64,000 bases of DNA from Incurvaria masculella (lineage: Eukaryota; Arthropoda; Insecta; Lepidoptera; Incurvariidae), in the NCBI GenBank assembly GCA_946894095.1, contig OX335651.1:17816501-17880500 (forward strand), read 5' to 3'. This document shows, piece after piece, positions 7,410 to 39,777 of the stretch. Position numbers and translations under genes: made by a program. The notes beneath the pieces are model-generated. The model was not told where the DNA came from. It did no database searches and saw only the letters and a list, made by a program, of their open reading frames with translations. Within the stretch, counting starts at the first letter, position 1. Each line of letters opens with the position of its first letter.

Positions 7410-8373
7410 CTCATAGTTTCTGTACAGATTTTAACATATTATCAATATGGATCATAACAAAAACATTAAGTATTTAAATATACCTTTACATAGACATGGA
7501 TAGTGTCATTTTGTATTAGACTGGAAAGGCAGGTAATGCAAATATTAAAGAGTATTCTCAAATCACACGATAAATCCAATGATTTTTTCCATGCCAAAAA
7601 CTAAAAAAGAATGGACCTCATATTGCTAACTCTCATACAGTAAGTAACAATGCGAAAATTCCACCATTTTGTATGAGTAGCATTTTTAATAGTCCTTTCC
7701 TTCAATCTGTTAGTTTTCAGATGCGCTCACACACACACTCATGCCGTTGTTATTTGAAGACAAACTGTTAGTGCTTATAATGATGTCATTAGACAATATG
7801 GGAGTACTCTAACTGATATTTTGAATGTTTTGAATGAATGATACATCGCTGTCCAGTCCGAATGGCAATGTTTCCTGAGAACCTCCTATATTTGCGATGC
7901 TCTGGATCTTAGTAAGCTATCAATCCATCAAGTGAAGTAATTCTGGAATTATCAAAAACACAGCTCGAATTTGAACATTAGTAAACAGCCCTAGTTTCAA
8001 CTCATTCACTGCAGCGTCATGTAACATTATTTTTTTTACCAATAATGCAGTCCCTTGATTAAACTATATTTTCTTTGGTTCTACGCTGCCCTCTCGTCTA
8101 GAAACCAAAACATTAAGGTTAGGATAAGTCGAGATAACACAACTGAAAAAAATATTGAATTCACAAATAAAATTAGTATAAGTGTGAAGTGTGTAGAAGG
8201 TTTCATTAAACTTGGAAATTTTGTGTCTCGCCTAACCATGCACGATTATTAAATCACAGGAAAGAGAATAGATTTTAAAAATAAAATAAGCAAGTTATTT
8301 TTATCGCACGTAAATTAGAAAAAATATGTCACTTATATACTTGATTAAGAATCAGTACAGTTTTTTTCCTTAA

Positions 8374-8740
8374 GAACCCCCGTAAGCTATGCTCCCCATA
8401 CAAACGTAGTTTACTAATAATTTGGAAACCGCTATTCCAATTAAATTGATATTTAATATATAATATCAGGTAACAAATATCTGTGTCTGCATGCTTTTGT
8501 TTTTTTGAAAAATCCAAACCGAATGAAATGAAAGCAAAAAGAAAATCTTCATACGAATTTTGTTTTCTCTATGGTTTGACCCAGAATACATTTACTGAAA
8601 AAACAAAGGCATGCAGACACAGATATTTGTAGCCTTATATTAGATACCAAATATCAGGTAAGTTGGAACATTGGTTTTCAAATGATTAGTAAACTACGTT
8701 TGTATGGGAGGCGAAATTTTCAGGTGCTTACGGGCCGACC
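8374..8740. mobile_element. Foldback element with TTAA flanks (367 bp)
   Basis: TTAA lies at 8370-8373 and 8741-8744. Left-arm motifs ccatacaaacgtagtttact, atatctgtgtctgcatgc and ttttgttttttt recur on the opposite strand in the right half, in reverse order (8715 back to 8600). The arms are about 140 bp around a spacer of roughly 80-100 bp. No coding frame is present. Confidence 0.8.
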
Positions 8741-8759
8741 TTAACTGATTTTTTTTTTC

Positions 8760-11700
8760 CTAAATGTAATTTCAATTAATAATTGACAACAGCTGTAGTT
8801 TATAACATTAATAACAAAATACTAATATGTTTAAATGAAAAGAAGGATATGTTAAATGGAGAACAGACAGACAGACCTTGATTCTCAACATGAAAGTAAC
8901 TAAAACTGCAAACCTCTAAAGCAGCGTGATTGAGGTGATGTTAAAGTGACATATTTTCCTTGTGCTGCATCGAAAACGAGAAGCTGTCAACGTCGAAAGC
9001 AGAATTAGGTAACCTACGCGGCCGTGCTCAATACAACACGAGAATGCCTTTTCGACTCTGACCTTATTGGCTACGGGCGCCCTTCTTATGCAGGTTGTTA
9101 AAGAATCGGAACTGGAGTCTCAGGGTAAGGTCTTTCCGTACTGCAATGGAACACAGATAACGTCGTGACTGGGAGGTGAGTGCACAGTGGGAGGTTCGGG
9201 GTTCGACGTCCGATGGGAACCCCCTGTCACTACTGGTGATGCTGAACGGGAACCGCCCGTCTGGATTGCTTTGTAAGGAGGCTTGTGTGAGGGTTGCATA
9301 AGTTTAGTTTTAATCGCACGAATGAATAGTTTTTAATCAAACCACAATGTAGATTGCACATAATCGATATTGAAGGCGAGAACAAGACTTTACAAAAAAA
9401 TATTTGCTAGGCATATTATTAAATTATGATCATCTGTAATCTTGTTTAACATTTCATTTGGGTTGGACATAAAGCTCATATTTACGGACAAACTTAGGCA
9501 CACTAATTTGCTCAAAATTTTACCGTAACATTCCGGCTATTGACAGCTCGACATCTGATTGGACGATGTTTCAGAGAGACGCGTCGCGAATCTAGTAGAT
9601 ATGGACAGCATGGTTGACAAAACGTCAAAAAAAAGTAAGTTAAAAGTTGTTAATCCGTAAAGAAAAGTAACCTGCAATCTTGTTGTACATTAAATGGTTT
9701 CCCTACGGGCCACCGTATCGTCATTTGACAATGTCATCCTGGCAGCCTGGGGACTAGCCGGTATCGATATCTACACAACATTCTTGATTTACTCACGAAA
9801 TAGATCTAGACCAAGTACTAAACCAGCGTAAGATCTGAGAAAAAATGCGAGGGAATTCGATTAATTGTGCACCAATCAGAAGTGAATGACAAATATTCTA
9901 CACAGTAAGAGCGCAGAAGTAATTACAGAAACGTTTCTGATTGGTTCAGAATTGATCAAATTCCCTCGCATCTATTCTCAAATCTTACGCTGGTTACCAC
10001 CAGAGGTGCTTATCAGCCAATCATAAATTTTCCCAGATTCATTTATAAGAACCAAGCTAAAGCCATGATTCAACCAAACTTCCTCCTCTCACGTCAATAA
10101 CACCATGTTTTTCTCATCAACCCGTCGCTCATACAAGACTTCCTGTGCAAAACAATCCAGGTGGGCGTACGTGTGTGTCGAGTCCAAACGGGTGCGGTGT
10201 CGTCGGCCGGCCTGCGACTACTCACGAGTGGGGGTTGGGGTTTGTATCGATCGGCTGCGCCCGGACGAATACGTCCTCCGTCCCGTTCGAATGGACCTCC
10301 TCAGACGGCGTCACGCCCTCGGCGCTCGGCGGAGTCAGGGACAGAACCGCGCTCTCTATGACATCCTCCACTCTCGCCGCGAGGCTAGCTCGAGGGAGCC
10401 GTATGCTGAGGGTCGCGCTAGCTAGCTCCAATCTCTTTTTGATTCGGCAATCTGATGTTGCGCGTACGAATTGGCCATTTAGTGAGGCCGCACACCGAAC
10501 CAACATGCCACGTGCGCAGGGTAATTGTTGCACCGCATATGAGCTCGAAAACGCACACCGAATCGTAATTTGCCAGGTTACATGGAGGATGGTGAAAATG
10601 ATTTCACTATCCTCTGGCAACAAAGGTATTTAATAAATTAAAGGTGTTACTTGGTGACCCATAAAGATTGGGCGGGTAAACTGTGACAATTTCAAATACT
10701 CACAAGAGTTAAGTGCTTAGACAAAAAATCATATACAAATGGATTGGATACACATAATGAATGCACTGGTACTAGCCAAAACACGAAGTTTGTCGAGGCG
10801 CCACAAGTAAAGTAGCAAAATTGACATAGAGAAATATAATTATTAATGTCAGTCTGAAGTTCCATTTCGACTTACGAGGCATTTTACTACATATTTATTA
10901 CATTTGTTCGAAGGTACATTTGTAAGGCGATGCAAGTTGATTAGCCCTAGCGCCTTAAAGCGTATATTCTTTTTAATTTATAATAACAGTATCGTCTTTA
11001 ATTACCAAAAGCATATGTACCACCACAAAAACATCCGCGTGCGATCCTGCCTTTTCGGGGAGCGATTCATCCTTCGCGAGACACATGCGGCGCAACAACT
11101 GTGGCAAATGTATGTCCGGTGTGCAGCCCTACTTAGACTTCAATACTGACCACCGCATTTACACACCTTGCATTGATTTTTTAGGCAAAAGTCGACTGAA
11201 ATTTAGTTAGTGCTACCGATAACTGCAGTGGACGACCGATGGTTGCGTGTGGTTAATACTACAGGAAAACTTCGGTTTTTGACAGTTAGTGGTTCGTGGG
11301 ATGAAAAACTGCAGTAACTTCCTCACTGGTATCACCAGTGTATGACCCCGTTATGCCTATGCTAATATCCACAGGTTATACGGCCGTGGTTGGTATGTGC
11401 AGTGTTACAGCTTATTCTGTTTTCTCATTGCACTGAATATTCTATGGCTCGCCAGTCATAACCCTGTCCCACAGTTGAGTTGTCGAAACATTTGACTGCA
11501 ATATTTGACATTCACTTGCATCTGTGAGACCTGGGTCGAGACGCAAGTGTATAAGAATTTAGTGAAATGAGAAACCTCAGCATTGTGCATGTGACAGGGC
11601 ACGTCTATTAACGTAAATGGCATGATTACGAATGAGTACGATGTTGCCCCTTCTAATGGCATTTCCTGAAGGCAGCCTTCGTTATGACCCCATCTGTGTA

Positions 11701-12260
11701 TCAATGTAATATTTCATTTCATGTGATCAGCATGTTCACTCTAAAAATGTTTTCTTCACATCTATTGCTACGGACGAAATGTTACGTATACTACCGATGA
11801 TAAGATACATTCTGATATAAATGAAGATATTAGAAATGAAAGCATTGATGGTTGTCGATAGTTTCCCAAACCGTGATGACCGGAAGCTTATATGCTGAGG
11901 TGAGGGTATAAATTTGATGAAGCCAAAATGCCTATCACATTCTTTCATTCTTTGGCCATTCACATACATTTCAGCAGATAACCTAGGACCTGAAAGTAAG
12001 CTGCAAAGGAAACAATATTAACAAAACAAAAGAGCACACACATTTCCCCATTGAAGCAATAAAGTATTTGTTCGATTGGATCCACACTAGTCACGGTGGT
12101 ATTTTATAGCTGTTATACAGATTGTGTATGAATAAATGCATTATAATATAACCCTCCTTCAATGTTTTAATGCTTTAACATTTTATTGTGATATCTATAC
12201 AGGCACACCATTGAAAAAGAATACAAAGCAAGGCCGAAGAATTGCTCAAAAATCTGACTT
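8760..12260. other. Mixed stretch with one exon-like island
   Basis: Only the block at 10205-10405 stands out. At 9160-9300 the sequence ggttcggggttcgacgtcc resembles a pol III B box and may mark another SINE head, but no body was recognised. Confidence 0.4.
10205..10405 (-). CDS. Exon-like block of unknown gene, possible alternative tmod C-terminus
   Basis: A GC-rich island in AT-rich DNA has a protein-like minus-strand frame. After a possible acceptor (accctcag at about 10406) it reads IRLPRASLAARVEDVIESAV, then LSLTPPSAEGVTPSEEVHSN and GTEDVFVRAQPIDTNPNPHS. It ends in either a TGA stop or a GTGAGT donor, which overlap (CTC|GTGAGT). The Ser/Thr/Pro/Glu-rich composition resembles a real disordered tail. 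No family is recognised. It lies between tmod exon 7 and the candidate last exon on the same strand, but the phase from the preferred exon 7 donor does not fit the best acceptor. Confidence 0.3.
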
Positions 12261-12272
12261 TTTCACAGTTTT

Positions 12273-12318
12273 TTATCTTTTGTTACAGAACGAAAAGTTG
12301 TTCTGTAACAAAAGATAA
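12273..12318. repeat. Perfect 19-bp hairpin
   Basis: TTATCTTTTGTTACAGAAC, a loop of 8 bases, then GTTCTGTAACAAAAGATAA. It lies in the long stretch between tmod exon 7 and the candidate last exon. Confidence 0.85.
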
Positions 12319-12622
12319 GTTATTCCATATAGAAATCACACCCTTGAATAATGGAAAAAGTGTGCTCCAATAACAATGTTGATTCTAATATTTGAATCCA
12401 ATGAATAAACACCTTTTAACTATTTTTGGAGCTCCTATAGGAGCTTTACAATACCCCGAGTTGCAAATTGAACACCAAAAGTATTATAAATAAACAAATC
12501 GAAAATTACAGCAAATTTTATCAGTCTGCTGGATTTTTATACATTAAAAATCCGATCTAAGCATAATTACTCAATGTCAAATTGCAACGATCTTTCCCAG
12601 AATATTATAGATGGTAAAAATA

Positions 12623-12768
12623 TGGTATAGTGTTCATTTTATGATGAGGATTGAGGGAGAAGAGTGAGTGGGAAGAAAGACAGACATGAGGACAGTCTGT
12701 TGTCATGGACTTTTACAGCTGAAATTAATAGTAGTAGTAGAGAGAAACAGATGTAAAATGTCAAAATA
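12623..12768. repeat. Dispersed repeat, copy 1 (gatgaggattgagggagaag)
   Basis: Contains atgatgaggattgagggaga, gacatgaggacagtctg and gagagaaacagatgtaaaat. It matches 15278-15426 closely across its length and continues beyond it. Confidence 0.75.
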
Positions 12769-12779
12769 TGAGTGCGGTA

Positions 12780-13600
12780 GGGTGTTAGTGAATGTGTGTG
12801 TTGGGGTAAGGTGCGGTCCATTTAGATGTTCTGAAAAGAGTATAGGAGAGCTCTGAGAGAAGATGAGATCGGGAGGCATCCATTTATTGATGGAGGATGT
12901 ATATATTTGGGATACATGCTAGAGGCAAGAATGAGGTATGTGAATGATGCAAAGTGTACAAGTCAGAGTTCAAAATGAAAGTGTGTGGAAGAAAAAAGGT
13001 GCTGGTAGAAATTTCGAGCCCGTAGGTGTATGTAGGGTGATATATTTTCGGAAAGTGTAAACGGTCAGTGGTTGTGTGTAGATTTCGTAATGCGATGAGT
13101 GTTTTGGGATCTGTATCAGATCGTAAAAGTGGATTGGGTCAATATGCGAGGGTTTGTATTCTGCGCGCGGTAGGCGTAAGTGTTCTCAGGTCTGAGTTCT
13201 CAACTAAACTTTAGTGTTTACGGAACTTCGAAGTTACGTAAAAATGTCAAACCCCATACAAATGTTTACTACATATTCTGTAGTTTTACTTCTTTAAACT
13301 GTCAAAGTCAAACTCGGACTTCCGATTTGTATGAAAACGCGGAGTCGGCGCAAACGGCAATGTCGACGTATTTACGCCGACTATTTGTAAGCTGTCAAAT
13401 CAAAATCGGACTCGCAAATGTTAGTTCGCTTAACGCCCACTGCGCGCGCTTCTCAATTTCTCCATACATTTAAAAACGCCAGTCGATCGGTTTGGCCTAA
13501 ACGCCAATTTAGGTGAGAACTGGGATTACGGGCTCTGAATAAGCTTATGTGAGTACATGAGGTTAATTTGTGAGAGGGATGTGTGTAGGATAGGATGTAA
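12780..13600. other. Probable repeat-derived DNA, unclassified
   Basis: 12780-13170 is purine/T-rich with many tgtgtg and gagaga runs and continues the repeat at 12623. 13160-13510 has matching ends (gcgcgcggtaggcgtaagtgttctca against taacgcccactgcgcgcg and ttaggtgagaactg), suggesting a MITE, but arms could not be matched well. Confidence 0.35.
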
Positions 13601-13601
13601 G

Positions 13602-14014
13602 ATTTTTTTTTTTTATGCGACCTGACATGGATGGCTAATACCACACAACTACCGTTATGACATTAGCCCAATACACCACATTCCCGAAGGAATTAGGTGC
13701 CATGCCAGGACCTTCCCTTTATGAGCACGGCTACATTGAACTGGATGGAAAACACGGACAATATTTCATTGCCGCTTCGACCATCTTTTCATCCAATGCG
13801 ATGGTACCAACCCGGGCGGGCTTAAACCCTACCACCTAGTAGGGGAAGGGGACCTACAGTTTTACATGGATTCCGAACCATGGAGCAGCTCGCATTCGTG
13901 ACGAAATGCACTTATCGAACTCTGAAAGAGAAAGACAGTGGTGCAAGTTGGTATTGAACCCGGGCCTCTGGTACGCTAGGCCAGTCCCCGCGCCACTAGG
14001 CTACGAGCCGCTCA
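13602..14014 (-). mobile_element. tRNA-headed SINE (family A), full length
   Basis: Read on the minus strand, the head has a pol III A box (TAGCCTAGTGGCG) and B box (GGGTTCAATACC). Next come cactgtctttctctttcaga and atggttcggaatccatgtaaaactgtaggtcccc, then the body ending in aatgtcataacggtagttgtg, tggtattagccatccatgtc and an A-rich tail. It is nearly identical to 16091-16506, so it is probably a recent insertion. It lies just downstream of tmod exon 7. Confidence 0.88.
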
Positions 14015-14132
14015 AAGAAATTGAGTGTATGTACTGCGGTTGGTAACGAGACGTAGAGAGGGTACGTACTGTGATTAGGGTAGGTGTGTGTGTCCCGTGA
14101 CATGTATGAGAGTGTGAGCGGGGTGTACGCAC

Positions 14133-14280
14133 TTCTGTCGATGTTGCGCTGCAGGTGTGACGCGATGCGGTGGCGCGCGTCGCTGTACTCGAGGTGGAGG
14201 CCGAGCCGGAGCAGCGTCGGGTTCTGCTCCACCAGCTGAGTTATCTCCATTTCCATCTTGTTGCCCAGCACTTGTGATCT
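14133..14280 (-). CDS. tmod: tmod coding exon 7
   Basis: The exon is 148 nt with acceptor ctgctgcag. It encodes RSQVLGNKMEMEITQLVEQN, the most conserved tropomodulin signature, then PTLLRLGLHLEYSDARHRIA and SHLQRNIDR. The donor is read as GAA|GTGCGT at 14132, leaving phase 1. A second possible GT lies six bases on (GTACAC). The family normally continues for 20 or more residues after this point, so this is not the last exon. A full-length SINE starts about 120 bases beyond the donor. Confidence 0.93.
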
Positions 14281-17200
14281 CTGCAGCAGAGGGACAAAAA
14301 ACATTAATGGCGTTATTTTGGCAAGGAAAGTTGTTCGTTTTACATCAGTTCATCAAATCTAACTATGTAGGTACAAGTTATGGCACCGGAAGAAATTCAA
14401 GGTCTGTTTGTCATATTGAGGTAGTCTTTTGAGTCAAAAGTACTAAGGCTTTCTTTCTTTCCACGAAACAGTACGGACATGAAAATACATGACCGTACCG
14501 TTAACCCCATGGCTATGCGCCATGGCACAACAGTTTTGCACACTTCCGTTATGTTGATTTATTTCGTCTTTCTTTTGTCACTCCTATGCGCTATATATTT
14601 TTTAAATAACTGAATGTAACTGGATAAACCGGATAACTGGATATAACTGATATGGATGTCTAATACCACCTCTACTGTCATGATATTAGCCCACACCACA
14701 TGGGAATTAGGTGCCATGCCAGGACATTCCTTATATTGCATGGTTACATTGCACTGAATGGAAAACACAGACAATTTATATTGCCACTTCGACCATCATT
14801 CACTCAATGCGATGGTACCAAAAAGGGCGGGATTAGCTTTTTACGTGGAATCTGAACAACAAACGACAAATCTCTACGTCGCCTGTTATGAAATGCACAG
14901 GAAGAAATTCTGTTGGACCACAGCACAAGTACAATGGGGATGAAAATTGCTTATTTATCACAACAGGTGGCGCCTAAGCGACCAGACCTAAAGGATCCGT
15001 CAAAGCTGTCAGATACCATGCTAAATAAAACCGAATAGATTTGAAAATTTTATTTACTCAATGTATGTAATTGAAATTACTAAATTTCCTCATGGATATT
15101 CCCAAAGTAAATTGTTCCAAATTATGCTAATAAAATGTAGTCATGGGAAAGAAAATATTACAAAACATAACCTATTATATTTATATTAAATACATTTATA
15201 TTACATTTATATTCAAATTAGTATCAAGACAAAGAAATGCTTTTATTTTCCTCTAAACCATATTCTAACTACATGGTATGGTGTTCAAATTTATGATGAG
15301 GATTGAGGGAGAAGAGTGAGTGGGAAGGAAGACAGACATGAGGACAGTCTGCTGTCATGGACAGCCACTTTTACACCTAAAAGTAAGTAGTAGTAGAGAT
15401 AAACAGATGTAAAATGTCAAAATATCAAAGAGGCAACGCGGCGAGTGTTCCAGGCACTTTGGGGCAAACATCGGCTGACTTCAATGAAATATTTTACATT
15501 TAACGCAACATATTTCATTGGATCGCTCTCTGATTCACATTTGTCTTTAGTTTTAATTTAAATTTTACTTTTAGATGTTAGACTATTTAATATTAATTTA
15601 AGATAGCTTTAGTTCATTATAAATTCATTCCGTGCTTATACAATAAAATTGTTTACTAAATCATGGAGTACATTTTCCATTTAAAAACTCATAAATAAGA
15701 CTGTTTTGAAATGACAGTTTTGACATTTTTAAGGTGAGGTCGCTTATGCGACATCTAAAGCCATTGTAGATTCTTCGCTTTCTTCCCCATTCTCGCAACA
15801 AATTCCCAGATACACCGCGACATCCCCACCTGGTTGGAAGCGCGGAACTCTTCGACGCACTTGGTCGCGAGCAGCGAGCGCACCAGCGCCACCACGCCGA
15901 GCGGGCTGATGAAGTTAGTCTCCACGTTGACGACGCGCAGCGTCGAGTTCGCCTCCAGCGCGGCCGCCAGCAGCTGCGCCGTGCGGTCGTTCAGGCCCAC
16001 GTTGGTGAGGGAGAGCACCTCCAGGTGTGTGTTCGTCTTCAGCGCATCGAAGAGGCGCTCGAATTTCTCGTCGCTTATATTCTGCAAGTCGTCATGGTTT
16101 TTTTTTTTATGCGACCTGACATGGATGGCTAATACCATACAACTACCGTTATGATATTAGCCCAATACACCACTTTCCCGAAGGAATTAGGTGCCATGCC
16201 AGGACCTTCTTTTTAAGAGCAAGCTACATTGAACTGGATGGAAAACACGGACAATTATTCATTGCCGCTTCGACCATCTTTTCATCCAAAGCGATGGTAC
16301 CAACTCGGGCGGGCTTAAATCCTACCACCTAGTATGGGAAGGGGACCTACAGTTTTACATGTATTCCGAACCATGGAGCAGCTCGCAGTCGTGACGAAAT
16401 GCATTTATCGAACTCGGAAAGAGAAAGACAGTGGTGCATGTGGATATTGAACCCAGGCCTCTGGTAAGCTAGGCCAGTCCCCGCGCCACTAGGCTACGCG
16501 CTGCTCAAAATGGTAATGAAATGAAATGATAACATTCTTTATTGCGTGCAAAGCATGGTTTCCAAAAAGGCGGAATTAATGGCATGAGACATTCTCTGAC
16601 ATTCAACCTTAGAGACGTAGGAAAATAGTCTTAAAAAATCTTATAAAATATATAAAGAGAAAATAATCTTAAAAATAATTTTAAAATGAAATGAAAAATT
16701 ATGTATGTTTATTTTCATAAAATAAACGTACATAATATAGGCTTATAATGTATAGTACTTAGTATTAACAGATAGATACATAGACTACTCGGGACTAAGA
16801 GAAGTTAGGGTATACACGGATGGCTCTAAAACCGAGTATGGTACGGGAGCTGGCTGTTTCTCAGCAGACCTCAATATCAAAAGAACAGTTATGCTGGGCG
16901 CCGGAAAGTCCATCTTTCAGGCGGAGTGTGTAGGTCTAATTGAGGCAGCCGCAGCAATTAAACAGCGTGAAATGGTAGACTATACAATCAGAATACTAAC
17001 CGACAGTGCATCTGTTTTGAAGGCTCTTGCCAATAAAACATTCACTTCTGGACTAATTAAACAATGTCATGAGGCTTTACAGGACATCTCAATCGACAAC
17101 AGGATCACACTCCAGTGGATAAAGGGACATAGCGGGAGCTATGGCAACGATGCGGCCGACGATCTCGCCAAGGCGGGTTCGAGTTTAAAGCCCGTCGGAC

Positions 17201-20200
17201 CAGAGCCATTCATGCCAACCCCCTTCAGTGAAGTCAAGACCTGGCTGAGGAAACGAATGACAGTGCTCACACTGCAAGGTGGTCATCTACAGCAGACTGC
17301 AGACAATCAAGGGAAGCAGTGCCAGCACCGGATCCACACCTAACAAGGAAACTCCTACAGCTGCACAGACCACAGTTGAGAACGGTGGTAAGCCTACTCA
17401 CGGGCCACTGCCAGCTCAACAAACACCTTCACACAATTGGAGTCACGGACAGTCCCCTCTGCAGGGCCTGCTTGGAGGCGGAGGAGACACCGGCACATAT
17501 AGTCATGGAATGTAGACAACTGCAGACATTTTGGACGGGGGTCTTTAGCTTCGAAAGGAGCGACCCGCAAGTGTGGAAAGACCCTAAAGGGCTGCTACGC
17601 TTTGTGGAAGAGCTCGGCTGGCTGAAGTGAGCCAAAAGTCGGGTTACTGAGCACAACGGCCTCGTGTCAAGTGCGTTCAAGCGTCGGCAGCCACTCGCCG
17701 ACAACAACAACAACAGATAGATACATAGAAATATTTATACATATAAATATATACATATATACCATTATATTTAATGCACAAAGGAAACATTATTACGGGT
17801 GCCACTCCGGCTCCCGAGAGCAATTTTTCTCAGGGTTCCCAAACAGCAGACCGATTATGTGTAGACAGTATAGGCATAATTTTCATGTTCAATGTTCATT
17901 CATACGATACGAAATAACATTGTCTTGGAACTTAAAAAAAGGTATATTTAGTATGGACCTCTTCAGTACAGGTAATGTCTAAGGCTTCATGTTAGATTGT
18001 GAACACTGTAATTATGGTACGCATGCGAGCACTGTGTGAATCCTTCACAATGAAACGGCGCGCGTTTTAGAAGCTAAAAAGTAGAAAACAAACATCAAAC
18101 TAGTAGAATGCAAATGTCAAAAACAAAAGAATGTGTTCCTGTACATTTGTGACATGGAAATCTAAATGGATGTGTAAGAACCCGCCATAATGCGACCAAA
18201 ATAGTGAGTTCCCTAAAAAAAAAATTCGCAGCAAAGCAGATGAAGTGACTCAGTGGGAATTCTTTATAAGTATCGATCGGGCAAAACTCTCAGAATGGAT
18301 GTTGATAAAACAAGAACTCTCAGAACTCACGATAACAATGTGCGTACCTTAATATTATTCCAATTGAGATCAACAAGTTTCTGGTCATCGTCCTTCACCC
18401 GCTTCACTGTGTCCTCGGGGTCCGTGTCGTTGGGGGGGTCCATGGGGAACACCTGCAATGTACACGGCAACACATTTACCACAACGCTAGCAGCAGCGGA
18501 CACCAATCAGGCATTCTCATTCAATTGAAAATTATGTGCTTAAAAATTTTAATATCTGTTTCTAGCATCCTCATATATTCATTTAATAAAAAATAAAAAA
18601 AAAATTGTCATTATTCACTAGATTGAATGCAGATGCCCTTTTTTACACTGTATTTAATTGTACGGCTGTTTCTTATTAATTAAATCCTTTTGTATGTAGT
18701 TATCCAATGTAACAATGTTATATGTTTAAGTTGTGTGGGTTCCGGCACTTAAAAATAACATATGTGGTCCTATTGAATATCTATCAGTGTAAGAAGTGAC
18801 TAGGTAACGTATTGCTCACATTCCACGTAAAATTGTAGGTCCTCTTCATTACTTACTAGGTGATATAGTTAATCCTGCTAGGTTTCGTATCATCATATTC
18901 AATCGAAGCAATAATGAAAATTGCCTGCATTTTCCATATAATTCATGGTAGCCATTAAATATAAAAATGTCCTACCATGGCATGTGGTGTGTTGGGCTAA
19001 TGTCATGACAGAATTTGGGTTTGGTGTTAGCCATCCATAGCCGGCCATTTTAACATATTTGAAATATGTAAGAGACTGTAAAAAAATTTAATTTAATGCA
19101 AGACCACTTTGGTGGAAATAACGAAAAAAGAAGCAATTCAGCAGTATGAAAGGACCTCATCTCTGTGTACGGCGATTATACTGTGAAAGAAACCTACTGA
19201 AACTTCCCATGGAACAGACAATAGAATAAACAATAAGATTTAAAGACAAGGACCTTCTGTTTGGAGGATTTGGTGATGCCGTCCCAGCCGAGCCCGACGG
19301 GCTGTCCCTTGTTGAGCAGCGACGCGTGGTACTGGTCCTGGTTCATCATGGAGTGGAAGCCGAGGATAGCTGCAACACAAGCGCCAACGTCATTACTGCA
19401 TGCGTTACACTGAGGGGATAAAAACTTTTAACATGTTTCACGGCGATGTGTACTTTCATCGGAATGTGCTGATTTTACCCTAAAACATTTTGGTAGAGAG
19501 TTGGCCGGGGATATTCATTTATTTTATCGGACATAAGCCGAATACCCTATCAGAGAATGGTCCATCTTGTGGTTACAATTAAATTGTATTATTATTATTT
19601 GGTTTATAACACTAGCAGCTATAAGCGTGCATATCAGGTTTTAGAATTACTGAGTGCACTTGTATTTTTTTTAAGTTGTTATGTCCAGAAAATATTATTA
19701 TTAAATCGATTTTATAGAAAAAATAGCATGATAATGATTATCACGCTACGGTTCTTAGGAAGCCAGGCTAGCCACAAAGAACTACTATGTACCCTAAAAC
19801 TCGTACAAGCCATCAAGGAGGCTCGAATGTGAAAAACGAACCTGCCACCAACAGCCACCTGTCAGCGAACCTGTCAGCCTCGGTAGCCCAGTGGCGCGAA
19901 GCCTTGCAATTCGTTAAGCCTGATGAAGCACATCTGAGCCCGGTTAGAACCTAACCGCGCTCAGATGTGGTTCGGATTCCACGTAAAACTGTAGTTCCCC
20001 TTCCTTACTTACTAGATGTTAGTGTGGTATCCTGACCGGGTTGGTACCATCGCACTGAATGAACGATGGTCGAAGCGGCAATGAAAATTATCCGTGTTTT
20101 CCATCCAGTTCAATGTAGCCGTGCTCATAAAGGGAATGTCCTGGCATGGCACCTAGCTCCCATGTGGTGTGTTAGGCTAATATACAGTCTGGTACTAGCC

Positions 20201-23200
20201 ATCCATATCAAGTTACATAAAAACTGGCCAAGTGCGAGTCGGATTCACACAAGAAGGGTTCCGTACCATTGTACAAGATTTAACACAAAAAAATCAGGTT
20301 TTTTTATTGTTATTATTTTTTTTATTTTAACTATTTGTTGTTATAGCGGCAAAACAAATACATACTCTGTAAAATTTTCAGCTGCCTAGCTATTACGGTA
20401 CAGCCCTGTGGCAGACACACGGACAGACGGACGGACGGACGGACGAACGGACAACCCTAAAAAACAACATCAACTTACCGGCGAGGTCAATGATCTCCTC
20501 CTGGCTGGCCGTGTCGAGCGCCTGCTCGTACTCGTCCCCGAGGTCGATCGCGATCTGCTCCTCCGCCTCGCGCGTCTTCGCGGACTCCGGCGGCGGCGAC
20601 CACTGCAACACGACACACGCCGGTGAGCGGTTGTAACCCACAACCCATACACAGATGCTCGTACTCGTCCCCGAGGTCGATCGCGATCTGCTCCTCCGCC
20701 TCGCGCGTCTTCGCGGACTCCGGCGGCGGCGACCACTGCAACACGACACACGCCGGTGAGCGGTTGTAACCCACAACCCATACACAGATGCTCGTACTCG
20801 TCCCCGAGGTCGATCGCGATCTGCTCCTCCGCCTCGCGCGTCTTCGCGGACTCCGGCGGCGGCGACCACTGCAACACGACACACGCCGGTGAGCGGTTGT
20901 AACCCACAACCCATACACAGATGCTCGTACTCGTCCCCGAGGTCGATCGCGATCTGCTCCTCCGCCTCGCGCGTCTTCGCGGACTCCGGCGGCGGCGACC
21001 ACTGCAACACGACACACGCCGGTGAGCGGTTGTAACCCACAACCCATACACAGATGCTCGTACTCGTCCCCGAGGTCGATCGCGATCTGCTCCTCCGCCT
21101 CGCGCGTCTTCGCGGACTCCGGCGGCGGCGACCACTGCAACACGACACACGCCGGTGAGCGGTTGTAACCCACAACCCATACACAGATGCTCGTACTCGT
21201 CCCCGAGGTCGATCGCGATCTGCTCCTCCGCCTCGCGCGTCTTCGCGGACTCCGGCGGCGGCGACCACTGCAACACGACACACGCCGGTGAGCGGTTGTA
21301 ACCCACAACCCATACACAGATGCTCGTACTCGTCCCCGAGGTCGATCGCGATCTGCTCCTCCGCCTCGCGCGTCTTCGCGGACTCCGGCGGCGGCGACCA
21401 CTGCAACACGACACACGCCGGTGAGCGGTTGTAACCCACAACCCATACACAGATGCTCGTACTCGTCCCCGAGGTCGATCGCGATCTGCTCCTCCGCCTC
21501 GCGCGTCTTCGCGGACTCCGGCGGCGGCGACCACTGCAACACGACACACGCCGGTGAGCGGTTGTAACCCACAACCCATACACAGATGCTCGTACTCGTC
21601 CCCGAGGTCGATCGCGATCTGCTCCTCCGCCTCGTGCGTCTTCGCGGACTCCGGCGGCGGCGACCACTGCAACACGACACACGCCGGTGAGCGGTTGTAA
21701 CCCACAACCCATACACAGATGCTCGTACTCGTCCCCGAGGTCGATCGCGATCTGCTCCTCCGCCTCGTGCGTCTTCGCGGACTCCGGCGGCGGCGACCAC
21801 TGCAACACGACACACGCCGGTGAGCGGTTGTAACCCACAACCCATACACAGATGCTCGTACTCGTCCCCGAGGTCGATCGCGATCTGCTCCTCCGCCTCG
21901 CGCGTCTTCGCGGACTCCGGCGGCGGCGACCACTGCAACACGACACACGCCGGTGAGCGGTTGTAACCCACAACCCATACACAGATGCTCGTACTCGTCC
22001 CCGAGGTCGATCGCGATCTGCTCCTCCGCCTCGCGCGTCTTCGCGGACTCCGGCGGCGGCGACCACTGCAACACGATACACGCCGGTGAGCGGTTGTAAC
22101 CCACAACCCATACACAGAGTCGGCCCATAAACGCCAGCACAACTATTCGCCTTCATTTTGTTTCATCTTGGAAAATGAATATGAATTTTGAAATTAAAAA
22201 AGCCGGCCAAGTGCCAGGCGGACTCGCACACGAAGGGTTCCGTACCATCGAACAAGATTTAACACAAACAAATCACGTTTTTTGTAAGGAACCCTCTTCG
22301 ATTTTTATATTTTTTTTATTTTACCTATTTGTTGTTATAGCGGCAAAATAAATACACACTCTGTGAAAATTTCAGCTGCATATCTATTACGGTTCATGGG
22401 ATATAGCCCTGTGACAGACGCACGGACAGACGGACGGACAGCGGGGGCTTAGTAATAGGGTTCCGTTTTCACCCTTTGGGTACAACACCCTAAAAACGAA
22501 GGAAAGTTCCCTTTTTGAAAGAAAGAACACCTATATATAGTCGACATTGCGATTCTGTCATTGTATGTATAACACACCTATCGTGACCTACACCTCTGAC
22601 ATCAATATCTGCATCTTTGCACATCTCTGTATTCAACGAATAAACCTTCCGGTTTTTTTAGTCCTATTAATTTTTTTAAGCATTCTCTTTATTTGAACTA
22701 TGTTTTCATGGGATGGGAAAAACTGTCTATTTTGAACCAACACGGGCCTCATTACATTTAGATCATTATGCTTAAAATCTGAAACACTGAAATGTCTACA
22801 GAGATTTAGAAGACCTGAAGACTAATGGTCTTTAGGTCTGGACAAAGACTGGTGGTAAAATGTAAATGAAGGGCTTTCGCAAGGACTTATATGCGCTTTA
22901 ACACCTATCCCTTACTTCCTCATAGTTTTATACAAATAGGAAAAAGGGAATATTGGCGATAGTAAATCATTAACAATAAAACTGTGAAGGCATAAAAGTG
23001 TGACGGCTCACCCTAAAACTATATTGTAAAAATCAGGTAAGACTCCAACTTCTCTATTTGCTCTATTTGGACCGGAAAACGAAGTGAGGGAAGACCACCC
23101 GCCAGATGGGACGACGAAATCAAGTGCATCGGCGGAAAGCAGTGGGAAAAAGGAGTGTGGGACCCGCCAGGTGGGACGACGAAATCAAGTGCATCGGCGG

Positions 23201-26200
23201 AAAGCAGTGGTTCCATACCGCTGAAGGCCAGGAGGACTGAAGAAAAATTGGAAAGGCGTATGTCTAGCAGTGGACGCAAATACGCTGACTGACTGACTGA
23301 CATGCTCTGGAGGACGTTAGACGTTTCCAGGTCCAAACTATTATATATAAACTACTATACAAAACTCTGAGACTTACTTTCTTTCCTCTGATGATGCCGG
23401 CGACATAGGGCTTCAGTTCGGGTATGTCGGGCGTCTCGAGGGCTTGCTTGTTGATGTGTTCTATGAGCTTCTTCCTGTTCAGGGGCCCGGTGGGGCCCTT
23501 GACGCATTCGTACGAGTGTCTCTGGTCGGGCGGCAGGAAATTGTCCTGGAAATCAATAGAATCACATTTATATTTCTATTGCTGCAAAGGAATTGTTTAT
23601 TTTAAATTGTTTATTCATCATCCATAGACAGTACACTGCACTCGGATTTGTCATATTTTATCATTTTATCATTAGCCAGTTCGGCTATCCCAGCGAAGAA
23701 GAACTGGCAAGAAAATCCGCTGGTTTTTTTTTCAACGTCCACTTAGTCTAAGTTTACAAAAGTATAAAGTACAAACAATTAATATCATATGCAACAGTTC
23801 ATGACAAATATCAGTTTATTTGTAAAGACTATGCCCGCCATCTAACATGTTGCCAATTGGAGCAAGCCAGTCCCCACTAACAGCACTCGTTCAAGAGCAT
23901 CACGCCGGGCTCAGCCATATTTTAGGGAAAGAGGAGACCCAAACCTAGCGTCGCCGCAAGCTAAGGTCTTTGCTGCGAGGCACTGCTAATAATTGACGCA
24001 GGTATGGTAGAAATGGAAGTGATCAAAATAGCAAAGGTGATTTGGGAGATGGGTCATGGTCTGTTATAAGTTTTTTTTTTTTGCATCAACAGTCGAAGAG
24101 CTTTTTTTTATGAATTAGCTGCATGTCTTCTGAAGACGCGAGAAAAGTTTGCTGTCATCGTACCGCAGGTCATACCTCCAGAGGAGTGATTCTATGCATA
24201 CCCCTCCCTATCACATTTATTGATATTGTACATAATTCTATAAGGATAATTCATACCTACCTAATATAAATGTTTTCAAATATTTATTTCTTCCTTAAGG
24301 TGGCCCAACCCGGCGGGCCCAACTCATTCGCGGGCACGGTACAAAACCGTGCTGTTGCGCTCTGGGACCTTCTCTATTTCAAAGAATAAGACAGGCTCCG
24401 TGATGAGGAAGATGCAACATGTCCACAAAAAAGACAATGTGCATAGTGTATGATTTGGTAAGATTTACGAAAATTTTAATTTCAAGACGACTTATAGCTA
24501 AAAGTAAACCACGACCGATGTAGTCAAAAATCTAACAAAAACCAAATAGATCATAAATCTTGATTAAATAAGCTATGTCTGATGACTAATCTTTTTACGG
24601 TGTTCTTACTTTATCATTGCGTAATCCACATCCAAAGTTATTGTATAAAACGCGCGAAAAATTCGAACTTTCGGACCATATAACTTAGAAACCAAACACA
24701 ATTTTACAATGCCAATGGTCATCAGACATCTAGTTGGATCAAATAAAGCTATTTTGAGTAAAATTTTGGATCTCTGACAAGAAATATGGGCGTGATCTTC
24801 TTTCCCCTTTTGTATGGGGAGATGAGCGGGATGGGCCACCTTAATTATACATAGCTTTTTTGTCTTCAATTTCTTAATTGATAAGCAAAGACAAACAAAA
24901 CAATAAAAAACAAAGAACAAGGCTATCTGAGAAACCAATCATATTAAGGTGGAAATTTACTATAAGAATGCCGCCGATCGGTAAATGTTATCTATACTGT
25001 CGAGACAGCCATTTATGTTTACATTTCATAGGCTTCTGCTATCATTCCAATGTGTAATGGATAATCCGAACTCTAAAGACGCAACATTATCTTCAGGTGA
25101 AGTGATAGGGTTATACTATTGCATTGATTGAACCATAGTCGAAGGCACAATGAAAACTGTGTTTTCCATTGAACTTAATGTAGCTTTGCAATATAAAAAG
25201 GTCCTGGCATGGCACCTAGTTCCCAAGAGGTATGTTTGTACTGGGGGCGTGGCTTTCTGATGTTTACGGGCCCACCTTAATCATTACTTTTATTATATAA
25301 CACATGCACAACGCATGATTCGCTCCTGAGAAACTCTGAATACTGACTAAATTCCTAAAAACCCACCAAGGCATCAACGCATCGTCCTGCATATTACATA
25401 GTTGCGGTCACCTAAAAATCTTTTTTTTTATCCTTTTGATCACCACCTGTCACTATGGCAGGACATTCAGCAATCGGTTTGATTTATTGTTTCACTGTCT
25501 TTTGTAAAGTGTGCCCTTTGGTGTACACACTTTTGCAACAATAAGGATTTTTGGGTTTCGTTAAGTCATTGCATTTTTGGGTAATAAATCGTGGGATTCT
25601 GACATCAGTCTCAGGTTGGTTCTTTAGGTTCATTAGGTAGGAGGCCAAGATGTTTGGGTGATTAGACAGTATATGCCTATATTGTTTGACTGTATTGGTT
25701 ATCTCTTCTTTTATCACTGGAATGTGAAGGTTATGGTGCAGTCTCATACTCGTATTCGTTTTCTAACATACTAGTAACTGTGCGTAGCATTTTTTGTTTA
25801 ATTTCTACATTTGGGTTTAAAGCAGTACCCTAAAAAAAATTAAAAAAATTTTTTTCATCGATACATCACAGAATGAATCTATGCAATGCTGGAAATGAAG
25901 CCCTGGGTCTCAGCGAATAACCGGCCAACTACATGATAAGCTCGGCAGTGCAGTCATGTCTTTCATATTTTCATTTACAAAGATAAAATAAAAGAAAACA
26001 ATCCGTTCGACACTAATATGACAGAAAGGGATTCAGATAAATTTCTATTACCGGTATCACAACATGAAAACATGGGATTGTACAGGCCTAGGGTTCAATC
26101 CCTGCTATGGTTTTCCAAGATTTCCTGGTAAAGTAATACACTCCCTATTTGACTACGCCCAAAAGTTACAGACACACAACTAGCTAGGAAACATTAGTCC

Positions 26201-26341
26201 GTTGGTGCAACTTACATCAGGGTCCACCTCCTTCGCCAGCACCGAGATCTCCTCGGCGGTGAGCTTCGACAGCAGCTCGTCCACGTCCACCTCATCGTAC
26301 TCGGAGAGGTCCCGACCGTACAGCTTGGCCGGTGTCGTCAT
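14133..26341 (-). CDS. tmod: Tropomodulin, seven placed exons (join 26341-26216, 23545-23378, 20602-20479, 19369-19254, 18452-18348, 16081-15830, 14280-14133)
   Basis: Tropomodulins cap the slow-growing (pointed) ends of actin filaments and bind tropomyosin in muscle sarcomeres and the membrane skeleton. The exons read in this order encode about 346 residues, close to the 359 of human TMOD1, before a last exon. The N-terminal part has the acidic helix containing LLSKLTAEEI, then a GPTGPLNRKKL segment matching the family's APTGPFKREEL region. A middle acidic helix follows (EEQIAIDLGDEYEQAL), and the C-terminal leucine-rich-repeat cap includes LRVVNVETNFIS and LGNKMEMEI, both nearly invariant in the family. 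Splice phases agree at every junction (0, 0, 1, 0, 0, 0). The last placed exon ends in phase 1, so at least one more exon is needed; see 2464-2636. The start codon is the first Met of an exon whose upstream part is open but unlike the family, so 5' UTR exons lie at higher coordinates. Confidence in identity is very high; usage of individual exons is inferred. Confidence 0.95.
14648..14850 (-). mobile_element. SINE family A variant body, truncated
   Basis: Contains ggaattaggtgccatgccag, gcatggttacattgcactga and tcaatgcgatggtacc. The head is missing. It lies in the intron between tmod exons 6 and 7. Confidence 0.75.
15278..15426. repeat. Dispersed repeat, copy 2
   Basis: Same landmarks as 12623-12768 with a small insertion (agccac). 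It is cut off where the retroposon 3' end begins at about 15428. Confidence 0.75.
15428..15650 (+). mobile_element. Non-LTR retroposon 3' end, copy 2 (5' truncated)
   Basis: Starts abruptly at aaagaggcaacgcggcgagt and is co-linear with the minus strand of 58380-58180 (cactttggggcaaacatcgg, gatgttagactatttaat) to the end atacaataaa. The abrupt start fits 5' truncation during insertion, here into the repeat copy at 15278-15426. Confidence 0.65.
15830..16081 (-). CDS. tmod: tmod coding exon 6, leucine-rich repeats
   Basis: The exon is 252 nt and encodes 84 residues, phase 0 at both ends. It holds successive leucine-rich units: LFDALKTNTHLEVLSLTNVG, then LLAAALEANSTLRVVNVETN and FISPLGVVALVRSLLATKCV. 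The donor is GTGGGG. The acceptor reads ccatgacgacttgcag, but a SINE inserted on its intron side (ending about 16092) has put an A-rich stretch where a pyrimidine tract is expected. The exon is GC-rich and well preserved. Confidence 0.95.
16091..16506 (-). mobile_element. SINE family A, full length, adjoining tmod exon 6 acceptor
   Basis: This has the same structure and orientation as 13602-14014, including A and B boxes. Its A-rich 3' tail ends about 10 bases from the exon 6 AG (16083-16082). Possible short target duplication: atggt on both sides. Confidence 0.88.
16785..17711 (+). mobile_element. 5'-truncated non-LTR retroposon with RNase H domain and 18-bp target duplication
   Basis: The insert is flanked by the same 18 bases, AACAGATAGATACATAGA, at 16767-16784 and 17712-17729. 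It encodes the tail of a retroposon polyprotein: an RNase H domain with VYTDGSK (first Asp), FQAECVGLIEA (Glu), LTDSASVL (Asp) and WIKGHSGSYGNDAADDLAKA. After a frameshift between about 17260 and 17320 comes LLTGHCQLNKHL and a zinc knuckle, CRACLEAEETPAHIVMEC, ending in ELGWLK-stop. The 3' end is an ACA-repeat tail. Domain order fits the jockey/R1 type of non-LTR element. It lies in the tmod intron between exons 5 and 6. Confidence 0.92.
17730..18340. other. tmod intron part, nothing recognised
   Basis: AT-rich DNA between the retroposon and exon 5, with only short chance frames. Confidence 0.5.
18348..18452 (-). CDS. tmod: tmod coding exon 5
   Basis: The exon is 105 nt and encodes 35 residues, phase 0 at both ends, with acceptor attgcag and donor GTACGC. 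It encodes VFPMDPPNDTDPEDTVKRVK and ends in LVDLNWNNIK, which lines up with the family segment PNSTDVEETLERIKNNDPKL...VNLNNI that opens the leucine-rich cap. Confidence 0.95.
18806..19046 (+). mobile_element. SINE family A variant body, truncated
   Basis: Begins attccacgtaaaattgtagg and ends gtgttagccatccatagccg. No head; many substitutions. It lies in the intron between tmod exons 4 and 5. Confidence 0.7.
19254..19369 (-). CDS. tmod: tmod coding exon 4
   Basis: The exon is 116 nt with acceptor tgttgcag. Its first two bases complete an Ala codon begun by the G at the end of exon 3. It encodes ILGFHSMMNQDQYHASLLNK, matching the family's ILGMHTLMSNQQYYQAL block, then GQPVGLGWDGITKSSKQK. The donor reads AAG|GTCCTT, a weak form (C at +3), but it is the only placement that keeps phase 0 into exon 5. 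Confidence 0.92.
19877..20219 (+). mobile_element. SINE family A, variant body with tRNA-like head
   Basis: The head contains CCTCGGTAGCCCAGTGGCGC (A box) and GGTTAGAACCT (degraded B box). The body variant has ggattccacgtaaaactgtag and tcccatgtggtgtgttaggc. It ends immediately before a family B SINE (20221). Confidence 0.82.
20221..20464 (+). mobile_element. SINE-like repeat family B, copy 1 (shortened)
   Basis: Begins actggccaagtgcgagtcgg and includes agggttccgtaccat, which together look like tRNA-type A and B boxes. Then come ttgttgttatagcggcaaaa, the acggacggac stretch and ccctaaaaa. The usual gcttagtaatagggttccg segment is deleted. It ends about 14 bases from the tmod exon 3 donor. Confidence 0.78.
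20479..20602 (-). CDS. tmod: tmod coding exon 3, parent copy of the 133-bp array
   Basis: The exon is 124 nt: acceptor tgttgcag, then TGGTCGCCG, with donor GTAAGT at 20478 and phase 1 at the end. It encodes WSPPPESAKT, then EEQIAIDLGDEYEQALDTAS and QEEIIDLA, matching the second tropomyosin-binding helix. The acceptor and the first 80 coding bases are repeated 11 more times upstream in the gene (see 20523-22118), but only this copy continues into the second half of the exon and a donor. A SINE ends about 14 bases beyond the donor. Use of this proximal acceptor gives the normal tropomodulin frame. Confidence 0.9.
20523..22118 (-). repeat. 12 x 133 bp tandem array carrying the tmod exon 3 splice acceptor
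   Basis: Exactly 12 units of 133 bp run from 20523 to 22118. On the minus strand each unit holds 53 bases of intron end (through cgtgttgcag) and the first 80 bases of tmod exon 3. Units are almost identical: the only differences seen are gcg to gtg in two units (near 21634 and 21767) and cac to tac near 22078. Because 133 is not a multiple of 3, the frame rotates between units; no stop occurs in any of the three minus-strand frames. The array therefore offers 12 equivalent acceptors (exon starts at 20602 + 133k, k = 0 to 11) in front of one donor. Confidence 0.97.
22198..22497 (+). mobile_element. SINE-like repeat family B, copy 2
   Basis: This is full length, from gccggccaagtgccaggcgg to gggtacaacaccctaaaaac. 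It includes cacacgaagggttccgtacc, tttgttgttatagcggcaaa and gcttagtaatagggttccg. It lies about 80 bases beyond the far end of the 133-bp array, in the same orientation as copy 1. Confidence 0.82.
22500..23079. other. tmod intron part, nothing recognised
   Basis: AT-rich DNA between the family B SINE and the RTE fragment; no structure noted. Confidence 0.5.
23080..23305 (+). mobile_element. RTE-type non-LTR retroposon, 3' end with internal duplication
   Basis: It encodes the end of a reverse-transcriptase polyprotein in pieces: RPPARWDDEIKCIGGKQW, then an AYVxQWT-like end (gcgtatgtctagcagtggac). The tail is tgactgactgactgac, as in lepidopteran RTE elements. A block of about 38 bases (gggacgacgaaatcaagtgc...cagtgg) occurs twice, at about 23109 and 23172. 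It lies in the tmod intron between exons 2 and 3. Confidence 0.75.
23378..23545 (-). CDS. tmod: tmod coding exon 2
   Basis: The exon is 168 nt and encodes 56 residues. It is phase 0 at both ends, with acceptor ttccag and donor GTAAGT. It encodes the loop beginning DNFLPPDQR and the GPTGPLNRKKLIEHINKQAL segment, which matches the family's first actin-binding region, and it ends with PYVAGIIRGKK. About 70 bases beyond the donor, in the intron, lies an RTE retroposon tail (23080-23305). Confidence 0.95.
23600..23760. repeat. Dispersed repeat family D, copy 1
   Basis: Contains tttattcatcatccatagac, cactcggatttgtca and cccagcgaagaagaactggc aagaaaatccgc, shared in order with 43480-43640. Confidence 0.55.
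24299..24840 (+). mobile_element. TTAA-flanked MITE, copy 1 (542 bp)
   Basis: The copy is bounded by TTAA at 24295-24298 and 24841-24844. The ends are inverted: GGTGGCCCAACCCGGCGGGC and, reversed, GGTGGCCCATCCCGCTCATC. There is no coding frame. A TTAA target and duplication are hallmarks of piggyBac-type transposition; the assignment is inferred from the target alone. It lies in the tmod intron between exons 1 and 2. Confidence 0.88.
24948..25276. mobile_element. Second TTAA-flanked element, with SINE fragment inside
   Basis: TTAA lies at 24944-24947 and 25277-25280. The terminal match is short: ggtgg at the left, and ccacc at the right after tttacgggc. The right end (tttacgggcccacc) resembles the right end of the foldback element at 8374-8740 (cttacgggccgacc). 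A fragment of the tRNA-headed SINE body (about 25090-25240) lies within it. Confidence 0.5.
25090..25240 (+). mobile_element. SINE family A, fragment inside TTAA element
   Basis: Contains ttccattgaacttaatgtag and ggtcctggcatggcacctag. It lies within the element at 24948-25276. Confidence 0.55.
25290..26170. other. tmod intron part, nothing recognised
   Basis: A minus-strand open frame of 87 codons (25747-25484; MRLHHNLHIPVIKEEITNTV) is present but matches no family I know. It could be a retroelement relic, as the style (KQYRHILSNHPN) is protein-like. Confidence 0.3.
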
Positions 26342-38826: not shown

Positions 38827-39777
38827 GTGAGCAGCACTTCTGTTTGATAGCATTCGCGTTCGTCTTTGCCCAACGGACATGTGTGAAACGGTGATGGGTG
38901 GCAGTTTATGTCCGGCGAACAAGGGAAGGACTGACCGCCAACCATTGTCGAGCAAATCCGAATGTGAATGGCCGTTTTAATGAGTCGTCAAAGCTGCACT
39001 AAACGTTGTTCAGTTTGATAAACTGAGTCATCACCACTGAACGTTTTTGTTCGAGGGCTATATAAGTAATTCATCGCTAAAAGTAATGCTAAAGGCACAT
39101 ATTGCGATAAGGAAGGCCAACAAAGAAAAGCAATCGATTGTTTTGGTAGAGAGTGGGGAACTATGTTATAGCCTCTGACTTGGTATTAGATACTAGTATA
39201 CCGTAATAGATACCGTACTTATACGACAGGAAATCAGAATTGCTACGCTTCCATGGAGCAGGAATGGCACGTGGAGGAAGCTGAAGCGGGTGAGGAGCGG
39301 GAGGCCGTCATCGAATGGGGACGGGAAGCTGTTTGATAGCCTCTAGCCTGTTATTGTCTAAGCATGAAACGCACAATTTTCCCTGTATATTATCATGCCA
39401 CACTTGTACGACAGGTAAGCATAAGCATTGAGCGCTATACTTCTACGAAGATGGAATGGCACGTGAATGAGACCAAGCTAAAGGGGACGCGCGACAAGTT
39501 GGCGGAGCAGGAACGGGAAACTGTTCGGTAGCATCTAGCTTGTTATCTAGCAATGGTTGCAGATACCAAGGAGATTTACACCATATTCTTGTGCCATATT
39601 TATACGACAGGCAAGCAGGAGCGCTACGCTTCCATGGAGAAGGAATGGCGCGTGGAGGAGGCCAAGAGGAAGGTGGTGCGCGACAAGTTGGCGGAGCAGC
39701 AGCGTGTGCGCATCGCGGCTGAGGAGCGGCAGGCCGTCATCGACGTGGAGAGCGGGAAACTGTTCGATCGTCTCTAG
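38721..39777 (+). CDS. ATPsynE: ATP synthase membrane subunit e (join 38721-38826, 39611-39777)
   Basis: This is a 90-residue protein of the mitochondrial inner membrane. Subunit e lies in the Fo part of ATP synthase and helps hold the enzyme's dimers together. Exon 1 encodes MSAITRLPFGPPQAVSPVIR and a hydrophobic helix (GARLILLIAGVMYGRG) with the glycine-spaced motif typical of subunit e. It matches the human VSPLIKLGRYSALFLGVAYG region and ends at a GTGAGC donor in phase 1. Exon 2 starts after cgacag and encodes KQERYASMEKEWRVEEAKRK, a charged coiled-coil tail ending in SGKLFDRL-stop. The ATG at 38721 was chosen because it lies 5 bases after a strong acceptor (cgtttccacag, AG at 38714-38715); in-frame codons upstream are intronic by this reading. 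So a non-coding first exon lies upstream, perhaps ending at the AAAG|GTAATA donor at 38391-38392. At 90 residues it is longer than the 69 of the human protein. Confidence 0.88.
39143..39180 (+). pseudogene. Remnant of a further copy of subunit e terminal exon (3' end only)
   Basis: The stretch gagagtggggaactatgtta tagcctctgac resembles the end of the true exon (gagagcgggaaactgttcg ... tctctagcc). It lies one unit upstream of the copy at 39230, which makes the array four units including the functional exon. Confidence 0.55.
39230..39347 (+). pseudogene. Tandem copy of subunit e terminal exon, shortened but open
   Basis: This copy has the same acceptor context as the true exon (ttatacgacag) followed by GAAATCAGAATTGCTACGCT. 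Joined in phase to exon 1 it would read GNQNCYASMEQEWHVEEAEA and then GEEREAVIEWGREAV-stop. The central Arg/Lys-rich part is deleted. It still has an acceptor and an open frame, so it could in principle be spliced as an alternative last exon. It is more likely a decaying duplicate. Confidence 0.7.
39415..39538 (+). pseudogene. Tandem copy of subunit e terminal exon, broken
   Basis: This copy follows cttgtacgacag. It keeps recognisable stretches of the true exon (gaatggcacgtg, cgcgacaagttggcggagca, gggaaactgttcgg), but an early TGA and deletions destroy the frame. The sequence after it (ctagcttgttatctagcaat) leads into the acceptor of the real exon, so the duplication unit is intron tail plus exon, about 190-200 bp. 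Confidence 0.75.
39611..39777 (+). CDS. ATPsynE: ATP synthase subunit e, coding exon 2 (terminal)
   Basis: The exon begins after tatacgacag and completes a Gly codon with exon 1. It encodes a Lys/Glu/Arg-rich helix (EKEWRVEEAKRKVVRDKLAE, then QQRVRIAAEERQAVIDVESG) and stops at TAG 39775-39777. High GC and an intact frame set it apart from the three damaged copies upstream. No clear polyadenylation signal was found close by; the nearest convincing AATAAA is at about 40014. Confidence 0.88.

Follow-up and report, generated by a model that had tools for sequence, protein, structure and literature searches.

A Minisatellite at the Edge of tmod Exon 3 in Incurvaria masculella, and Similar Arrays at Other Exon Edges

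In the genome assembly of the moth Incurvaria masculella, the tropomodulin gene (tmod) carries a tandem array of 12 nearly identical units across the boundary between intron 2 and exon 3. At the level of the assembly, the array is confirmed and matches its first description. As a whole, it is best explained as an exon-edge minisatellite that rides as a passenger in a gene whose transcripts are mostly spliced normally, an account that we regard as reasonably probable. The gene probably tolerates the array for two reasons, namely that one copy of the exon remains complete and that exon definition selects the closest acceptor; an effect on splicing is possible. Together with arrays at the edges of unrelated exons, it looks like one member of a genome-wide class of exon-edge minisatellites.

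The tmod Gene and Its Array

Positions refer to the window, the whole 64,000-nucleotide stretch of contig OX335651.1 that was analysed, unless another locus is named. The exons, mapped with stink-bug tropomodulin (a database protein), form an unbroken seven-exon model on the minus strand, which encodes a protein of 346 aa with the C-terminal exons omitted.

26216..26341, minus strand, first coding exon (ATG)
23378..23545, minus strand, exon 2, donor AAA/GTAAGT
20603..23377, minus strand, intron 2, 2,775 nt with the array, 1,312 nt minus the 11 extra copies
20523..22118, minus strand, tandem array of a 133-bp unit, 12.0 copies (Tandem Repeats Finder, unit alignment)
20479..20602, minus strand, exon 3, complete copy, 124 nt, phase 0 in and phase 1 out
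19254..19369, minus strand, exon 4
18348..18452, minus strand, exon 5
15830..16081, minus strand, exon 6
14133..14280, minus strand, exon 7

The model protein matches the Pfam family Tropomodulin (PF03250) with 166 bits (cut-off 23.3, E 6.2e-49) and solved tropomodulins (8f8t, Tropomodulin-1, E 1.3e-64). These matches and the model confirm that the gene is tmod and the exon its third, as had been proposed from the sequence; exon 3 encodes residues 99-139 and is supported by homologues. A database search returns 520 proteins at E up to 0.001, and the top-ranked named ones among the best 120 of these come from Lepidoptera. On average, the window's tmod has an identity of 0.835 to 27 named Lepidoptera. 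Its mean identity to six outgroup insects, 0.803, is the highest such value in a set of 31 proteins, made up of the named Lepidoptera, three unnamed proteins and the window's own, and fits an early-branching moth or a near relative of one. With this value and an unbroken model, decay of the gene is unsupported as an explanation. By-eye protein comparison places two apparent alternative C-terminal exons at about 9.1 and 10.4 kb. The donor of exon 4 (AAG/GTCCTT at 19254, score 1.0) is unusually poor for a constitutive donor.

Minisatellites consist of head-to-tail, near-identical units of about 10 to more than 100 bp, and the tmod array has this organization (133 bp, 12.0 copies, 99%). Tandem Repeats Finder describes 20523-22118 with a period of 133, 12.0 copies, 99% matches and a score of 3171. 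One unit comprises the last 53 bases of the intron and the first 80 coding bases of exon 3, on the minus strand. The sequence-only reading had described a 133-bp unit of this make-up in 12 almost unchanged copies, and both the program and the unit alignment agree with it. Its number of acceptors, twelve, is right if taken as one real acceptor plus 11 extra; the array consists of 11 extra partial copies and the true start of exon 3. Cut in register at 133, nine of the 12 units are identical to the consensus, and the departures amount to three single bases: 21635 and 21768 are the same site, a C-to-T change common to units 9 and 10, and 22077 is a change confined to unit 12. Stop codons are absent from all three minus-strand frames, so that the claim of stop-free frames stands for the gene strand; it fails for the plus strand, where each frame carries 8. 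G+C is 65% in the unit versus 41% in the neighboring intron.

Origin of the Array

In the whole assembly (552 Mb, 31 contigs) the array DNA maps to one place, which rules out a satellite seeded from elsewhere. A 35-mer from the coding part, with up to three mismatches, matches 12 times assembly-wide, always inside the array, and the reversed 35-mer used as a control gives 0 matches in the whole assembly. Matches to tmod number 18 genome-wide, namely the 7 exons and the 11 partial copies, all at one locus; the gene is single copy, and a tmod paralogue is ruled out as an explanation.

The array lies between two copies of an interspersed repeat family, which are 81% identical and in the same orientation.

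20219..20436, no strand assigned, interspersed repeat, unclassified, about 40 nt past the exon 3 donor
22197..22439, no strand assigned, second copy of the repeat, across the array from the first and about 80 nt from the array's edge

The edges of the array fall outside both copies, which rules these out as breakpoints. A hairpin is a weak candidate for the driver (DNA z -1.56 for one unit; RNA z +1.20 for two units with the exon). The junctions between units have no bases evidently in common with the flanks; unlike ends were thus probably joined when the segment was first duplicated.

In the preferred account, a 133-bp segment across the boundary of intron 2 and exon 3 of the sole tmod gene would have been duplicated in tandem, and slippage or unequal exchange would then have enlarged the array to 12 copies. 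The variant common to units 9 and 10, together with the alternating unit types of an ABC transporter array (below), fits duplication in blocks. A duplication that straddles an exon edge would leave one complete exon, with the extra partial copies all on the intron side, and because the complete exon is spared the reading frame would survive and the array could persist.

Exon-Edge Arrays Elsewhere in the Genome

The tmod array probably belongs to a larger group of exon-edge minisatellites in the genome. Tandem Repeats Finder was applied to 275 kb in all, made up of 27 stretches and two 2.5-kb extensions into arrays found earlier. Twenty of the stretches, 10 kb each, were set at round positions; the other seven were taken after the lead had been seen but at positions fixed before it. 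Ten rows have a period of at least 45, and five pass a filter set after looking (period at least 60, at least 2.5 copies, at least 85% matches). With exon edges judged by eye, three of these five arrays straddle an exon donor and two start within 100 nt after one.

L012:9023-10000 with L024 (C3:9009023-9011101), 110 bp, 18.9 copies, straddles the donor of an ABC transporter exon
L021, 145 bp, 5.4 copies, straddles a GTGAGC donor of a coding-like exon without Pfam match
L013:9402-10000, 226 bp, at least 2.7 copies (cut by the stretch end), straddles the donor of a GARS_A exon
L021, 69 bp, 4.1 copies, begins 28 nt downstream of the GTGCGT donor of a coding-like exon that has no Pfam match
L027, 115 bp, 6.8 copies, begins 89 nt downstream of a PMSR exon's donor

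The exon piece at the ABC transporter array has no Pfam match itself and is flanked on both sides by ABC_tran domains. Two unit types alternate over part of this array, giving it a higher-order structure. The two L021 arrays are 2 kb apart and may share a gene, and hence are not independent. The excluded rows are a coding-like one in L010 (54 bp, 2.2 copies), one in L011 (62 bp, 1.9 copies), two overlapping ones in L011 with a Thr-rich-looking frame (69 bp, 74 and 79%) and one in L021 in which no coding frame was seen (162 bp, 2.0 copies).

Two family searches were judged on the matches listed, and copies too short to score would escape them. The kinase search of the genome (137 matches; 128 of the 629 candidates scored) contains a clearly repeated exon end at two places, both in exons identified as Pkinase by Pfam; the subfamily names are our assumption.

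L033:347-1628, 150 bp, 8.7 copies, straddles the donor of a presumably MST-like kinase exon
L034:518-1347, 139 bp, 5.9 copies, straddles the donor of a presumably NLK-like kinase exon

The unit of the MST-like array is a multiple of three, and one frame runs without a stop from the exon across some six extra copies. A third kinase pair with overlapping profile parts (C5:18902926/18903556) has no duplication in its sequence. The myosin-head search (77 matches; 65 of the 129 candidates scored) contains no exon-edge array among the matches listed, and is thus a negative for the class. Its repeated neighbors at C4:6754006, 6754538 and 6754979, which cover the same profile part, are presumably mutually exclusive exons, and a second overlapping pair (C15:2314075/2314695) again has no duplication in its sequence. 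Arrays thus straddle exon edges in at least five genes other than tmod (ABC transporter, GARS-like, an unnamed C8 gene, and the MST-like and NLK-like kinases).

Conservation of the extra donors differs between arrays. In the NLK-like array the donor 9-mer is identical in all six extra copies, as against 74-81% identity of whole units to the first copy, a figure lowered by a deletion in most copies; in the MST-like array the extra donors are 98% identical versus 82-90% for whole units. The ABC transporter array has the opposite trend (74% versus 89-92%), the C8b array is middling, and the GART array has two copies only. The better-kept donors of the two kinase arrays could hint at their use, which would count against the passenger account; taken over all these arrays, the indication of selection on extra splice sites is mixed.

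Several other duplications were observed. The window holds what is likely an older exon-edge case, at a putative exon without Pfam match; the long frame is present in the last copy only.

39213..39777, plus strand, three diverged tandem copies of the acceptor ACGACAG with a short terminal exon-like frame

At 11392-11769 of L021 with L025, a 138-bp G+C-rich exon-like piece without Pfam match is present twice, 241 bp apart and 93% identical. A 158-bp direct duplication (window 63013-63333, 91% identical) lies away from recognized exons.

Are Exon Edges Birthplaces of Arrays?

A chance calculation that assumes 100,000 donors in the genome gives p = 2e-4 for at least three of five random units straddling a donor, and p = 2e-7 for all five either straddling one or lying within 100 nt after it; with 400,000 donors the corresponding probabilities are 0.011 and 2e-4. 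Given the small sample, the post hoc filter and the two neighboring arrays, this constitutes a strong lead and not proof. The units of eight arrays have a G+C of 0.46-0.67 versus 0.41 in the sample, and being G+C-richer they could owe their position to base composition as a common cause. Repeat clusters in 28 sequences (the 27 stretches and the window) comprise 25 direct and 25 inverted ones; two-copy direct repeats also occur away from exons, and some direct clusters lie in exon-like pieces. Extrapolation yields a rough figure of about 6,100 donor-straddling arrays genome-wide (95% range 1,300-17,900).

We propose tentatively, as an idea that could well fail, that exon-intron junctions, and donors above all, are hot spots for the birth of arrays in this insect lineage. 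Thousands of genes would then carry evenly spaced extra splice sites, with tmod as an acceptor-side member, and the class would provide starting material for intron gain and a natural experiment in splice-site choice. Searches of open-licence PubMed Central turned up no title on exon-edge minisatellites as a class.

By our test, internal repeats occur in three of the 121 tropomodulin proteins examined. Part of exon 7 with intron-like read-through is present twice in Phthorimaea (P0002), the start of exon 6 is present twice in Tuta (P0041), and a caddisfly protein has a short C-terminal repeat. The Phthorimaea and Tuta repeats look like exon-edge duplications caught by gene prediction, and such events may recur in other moths.

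Splicing of Exon 3

Splice sites were scored with a weight matrix entered by hand.

20603..20604, minus strand, true exon 3 acceptor AG in unit 1, recurring every 133 bp to 22066-22067 in unit 12
20623..20627, minus strand, branch-point-like CTCAC with its A at -22, in every unit
20530..20531, minus strand, weak cryptic donor CGA/GTACGA, score 1.99, in every unit
20477..20478, minus strand, exon 3 donor GT, CCG/GTAAGT, score 10.4

By this matrix, exon 3 has the weakest of the model's six acceptors (2.72) and the strongest of its seven donors (10.4). The near identity of the twelve acceptors noted from the sequence holds, since every unit has the branch-point-like site and the AG and the only upstream change is at position -12 of unit 12. 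In an alternative-site survey, sites closest across the exon are favored where the flanking introns are long (PMC9225289), and in Drosophila exon definition is favored by longer introns and shorter exons (PMC5762160). With a 124-nt exon, introns of 2,775 and 1,109 nt and the strongest donor of the model, the geometry of exon definition favors the proximal acceptor. The exon 3 donor would most likely be paired with the nearest of the 12 acceptors, so that most mRNA would be normal and the 11 extra exon starts would be removed as intron; low-level leaky use of upstream acceptors may occur.

The alternative closest to the original proposal is a length-dependent splicing dial, in which the 12 acceptors compete and the length of the array sets the level of normal tropomodulin. 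The acceptors share the same branch point and AG, and where rival 3' splice sites lie at least 20 nt from each other the upstream one is preferred overall (PMC9225289), a finding that also counts against the passenger account; long flanking introns are described there as significantly reducing this preference, not as reversing it. Provided that the array is not spliced internally, the frame arithmetic of the sequence-only reading is correct: acceptors 3, 6 and 9 units upstream keep the frame, would be free of stops in the seven-exon model and may yield 133, 266 or 399 extra residues, and the other eight run into a stop. Its corollary that any other choice shifts the frame holds under the same proviso and would lapse if the GTACGA donors were used, which would offer in-frame combinations with a 62-nt intron. 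Against the dial, the proximal acceptor is favored by the geometry described above. The most upstream acceptor would moreover require an exon of 1,587 nt, and no repeat-bearing Tmod protein was found among 7,995 scored candidates, the one hit being an ordinary bug tropomodulin. Finally, the presence of such arrays across exon edges in five or more unrelated genes makes a regulatory device dedicated to tmod less likely, and we consider the dial improbable.

An account that we rate lower again treats the extra units as nascent introns. In units 2-12 the GTACGA donor and the next acceptor, with the copied branch point, would delimit a 62-nt intron and leave a 71-nt mini-exon. The potato RdRp gene has the same anatomy, with 10 exonic bases recruited there and 9 here (PMC4974935), and 62 nt falls within the 60-70 nt short-intron class singled out in Drosophila (PMC5762160). 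Isoforms with 3, 6 or 9 mini-exons would keep the tmod frame, but it would be lost for eight of the 12 possible numbers from 0 to 11; a joint count of retained and spliced units puts 26 of 78 combinations in frame, among them the normal form and the pure cases. The donor is also weak: its 1.99 compares with a score of at least 2 for 20.7% of the 3,823 minus-strand GTs of the window, and potato used GTAAG. Least likely of all is an assembly artefact in which one or a few real units were inflated in number, which would agree with the 99.8% identity of neighboring stretches of the array but not with variants placed in particular units, one of them common to neighbors, nor with the divergence of at least 10% or the higher-order patterns of other such arrays, which are unlike a simple assembly echo.

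Significance

Work on how one of several identical splice sites is chosen generally relies on engineered constructs. Unrelated genes of this genome contain natural runs of like, regularly spaced donors or acceptors, from 3 to about 19 of them, in which ordinary RNA reads could reveal the rules that favor the nearest site across the exon or across the intron. If exon edges are truly hot spots of tandem duplication, this bears on the origin of new introns and on the growth of some insect introns.

Relation to Known Systems

The tmod array resembles an intragenic minisatellite (VNTR) in its 100-bp-scale unit, its many near-identical copies and the variants shared by neighbors. Unlike in an ordinary one, the unit is part coding exon and part intron, with a splice site in each copy. 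Classic duplicated-splice-site constructs likewise set like sites in competition. As described in the survey of tandem alternative 3' splice sites, several similar acceptors compete for one upstream donor, as they would in tmod; the tmod acceptors differ in forming a row of twelve at 133-nt intervals, in each having a branch point to itself and in belonging to a natural gene (PMC9225289). In Caenorhabditis elegans, the intronic minisatellite CeRep25B lies near alternative splicing regions (PMC4039745). It is thus also a tandem repeat class linked to such regions, but one described as a single named minisatellite that holds splicing-linked motifs, whereas here each array stems from its own exon edge.

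The closest parallel is the potato RdRp gene, reported to have gained an intron by duplication across an intron/exon boundary, with acceptor and branch site inherited (PMC4974935). In both genes the copied segment spans the acceptor boundary and includes the branch site, the acceptor and the start of the exon, and a few exonic bases could act as a new donor. The potato case, as reported, has two copies, a GTAAG donor and splicing confirmed by RNA, whereas tmod has 12 copies and a weak GTACGA, read from DNA sequence only.
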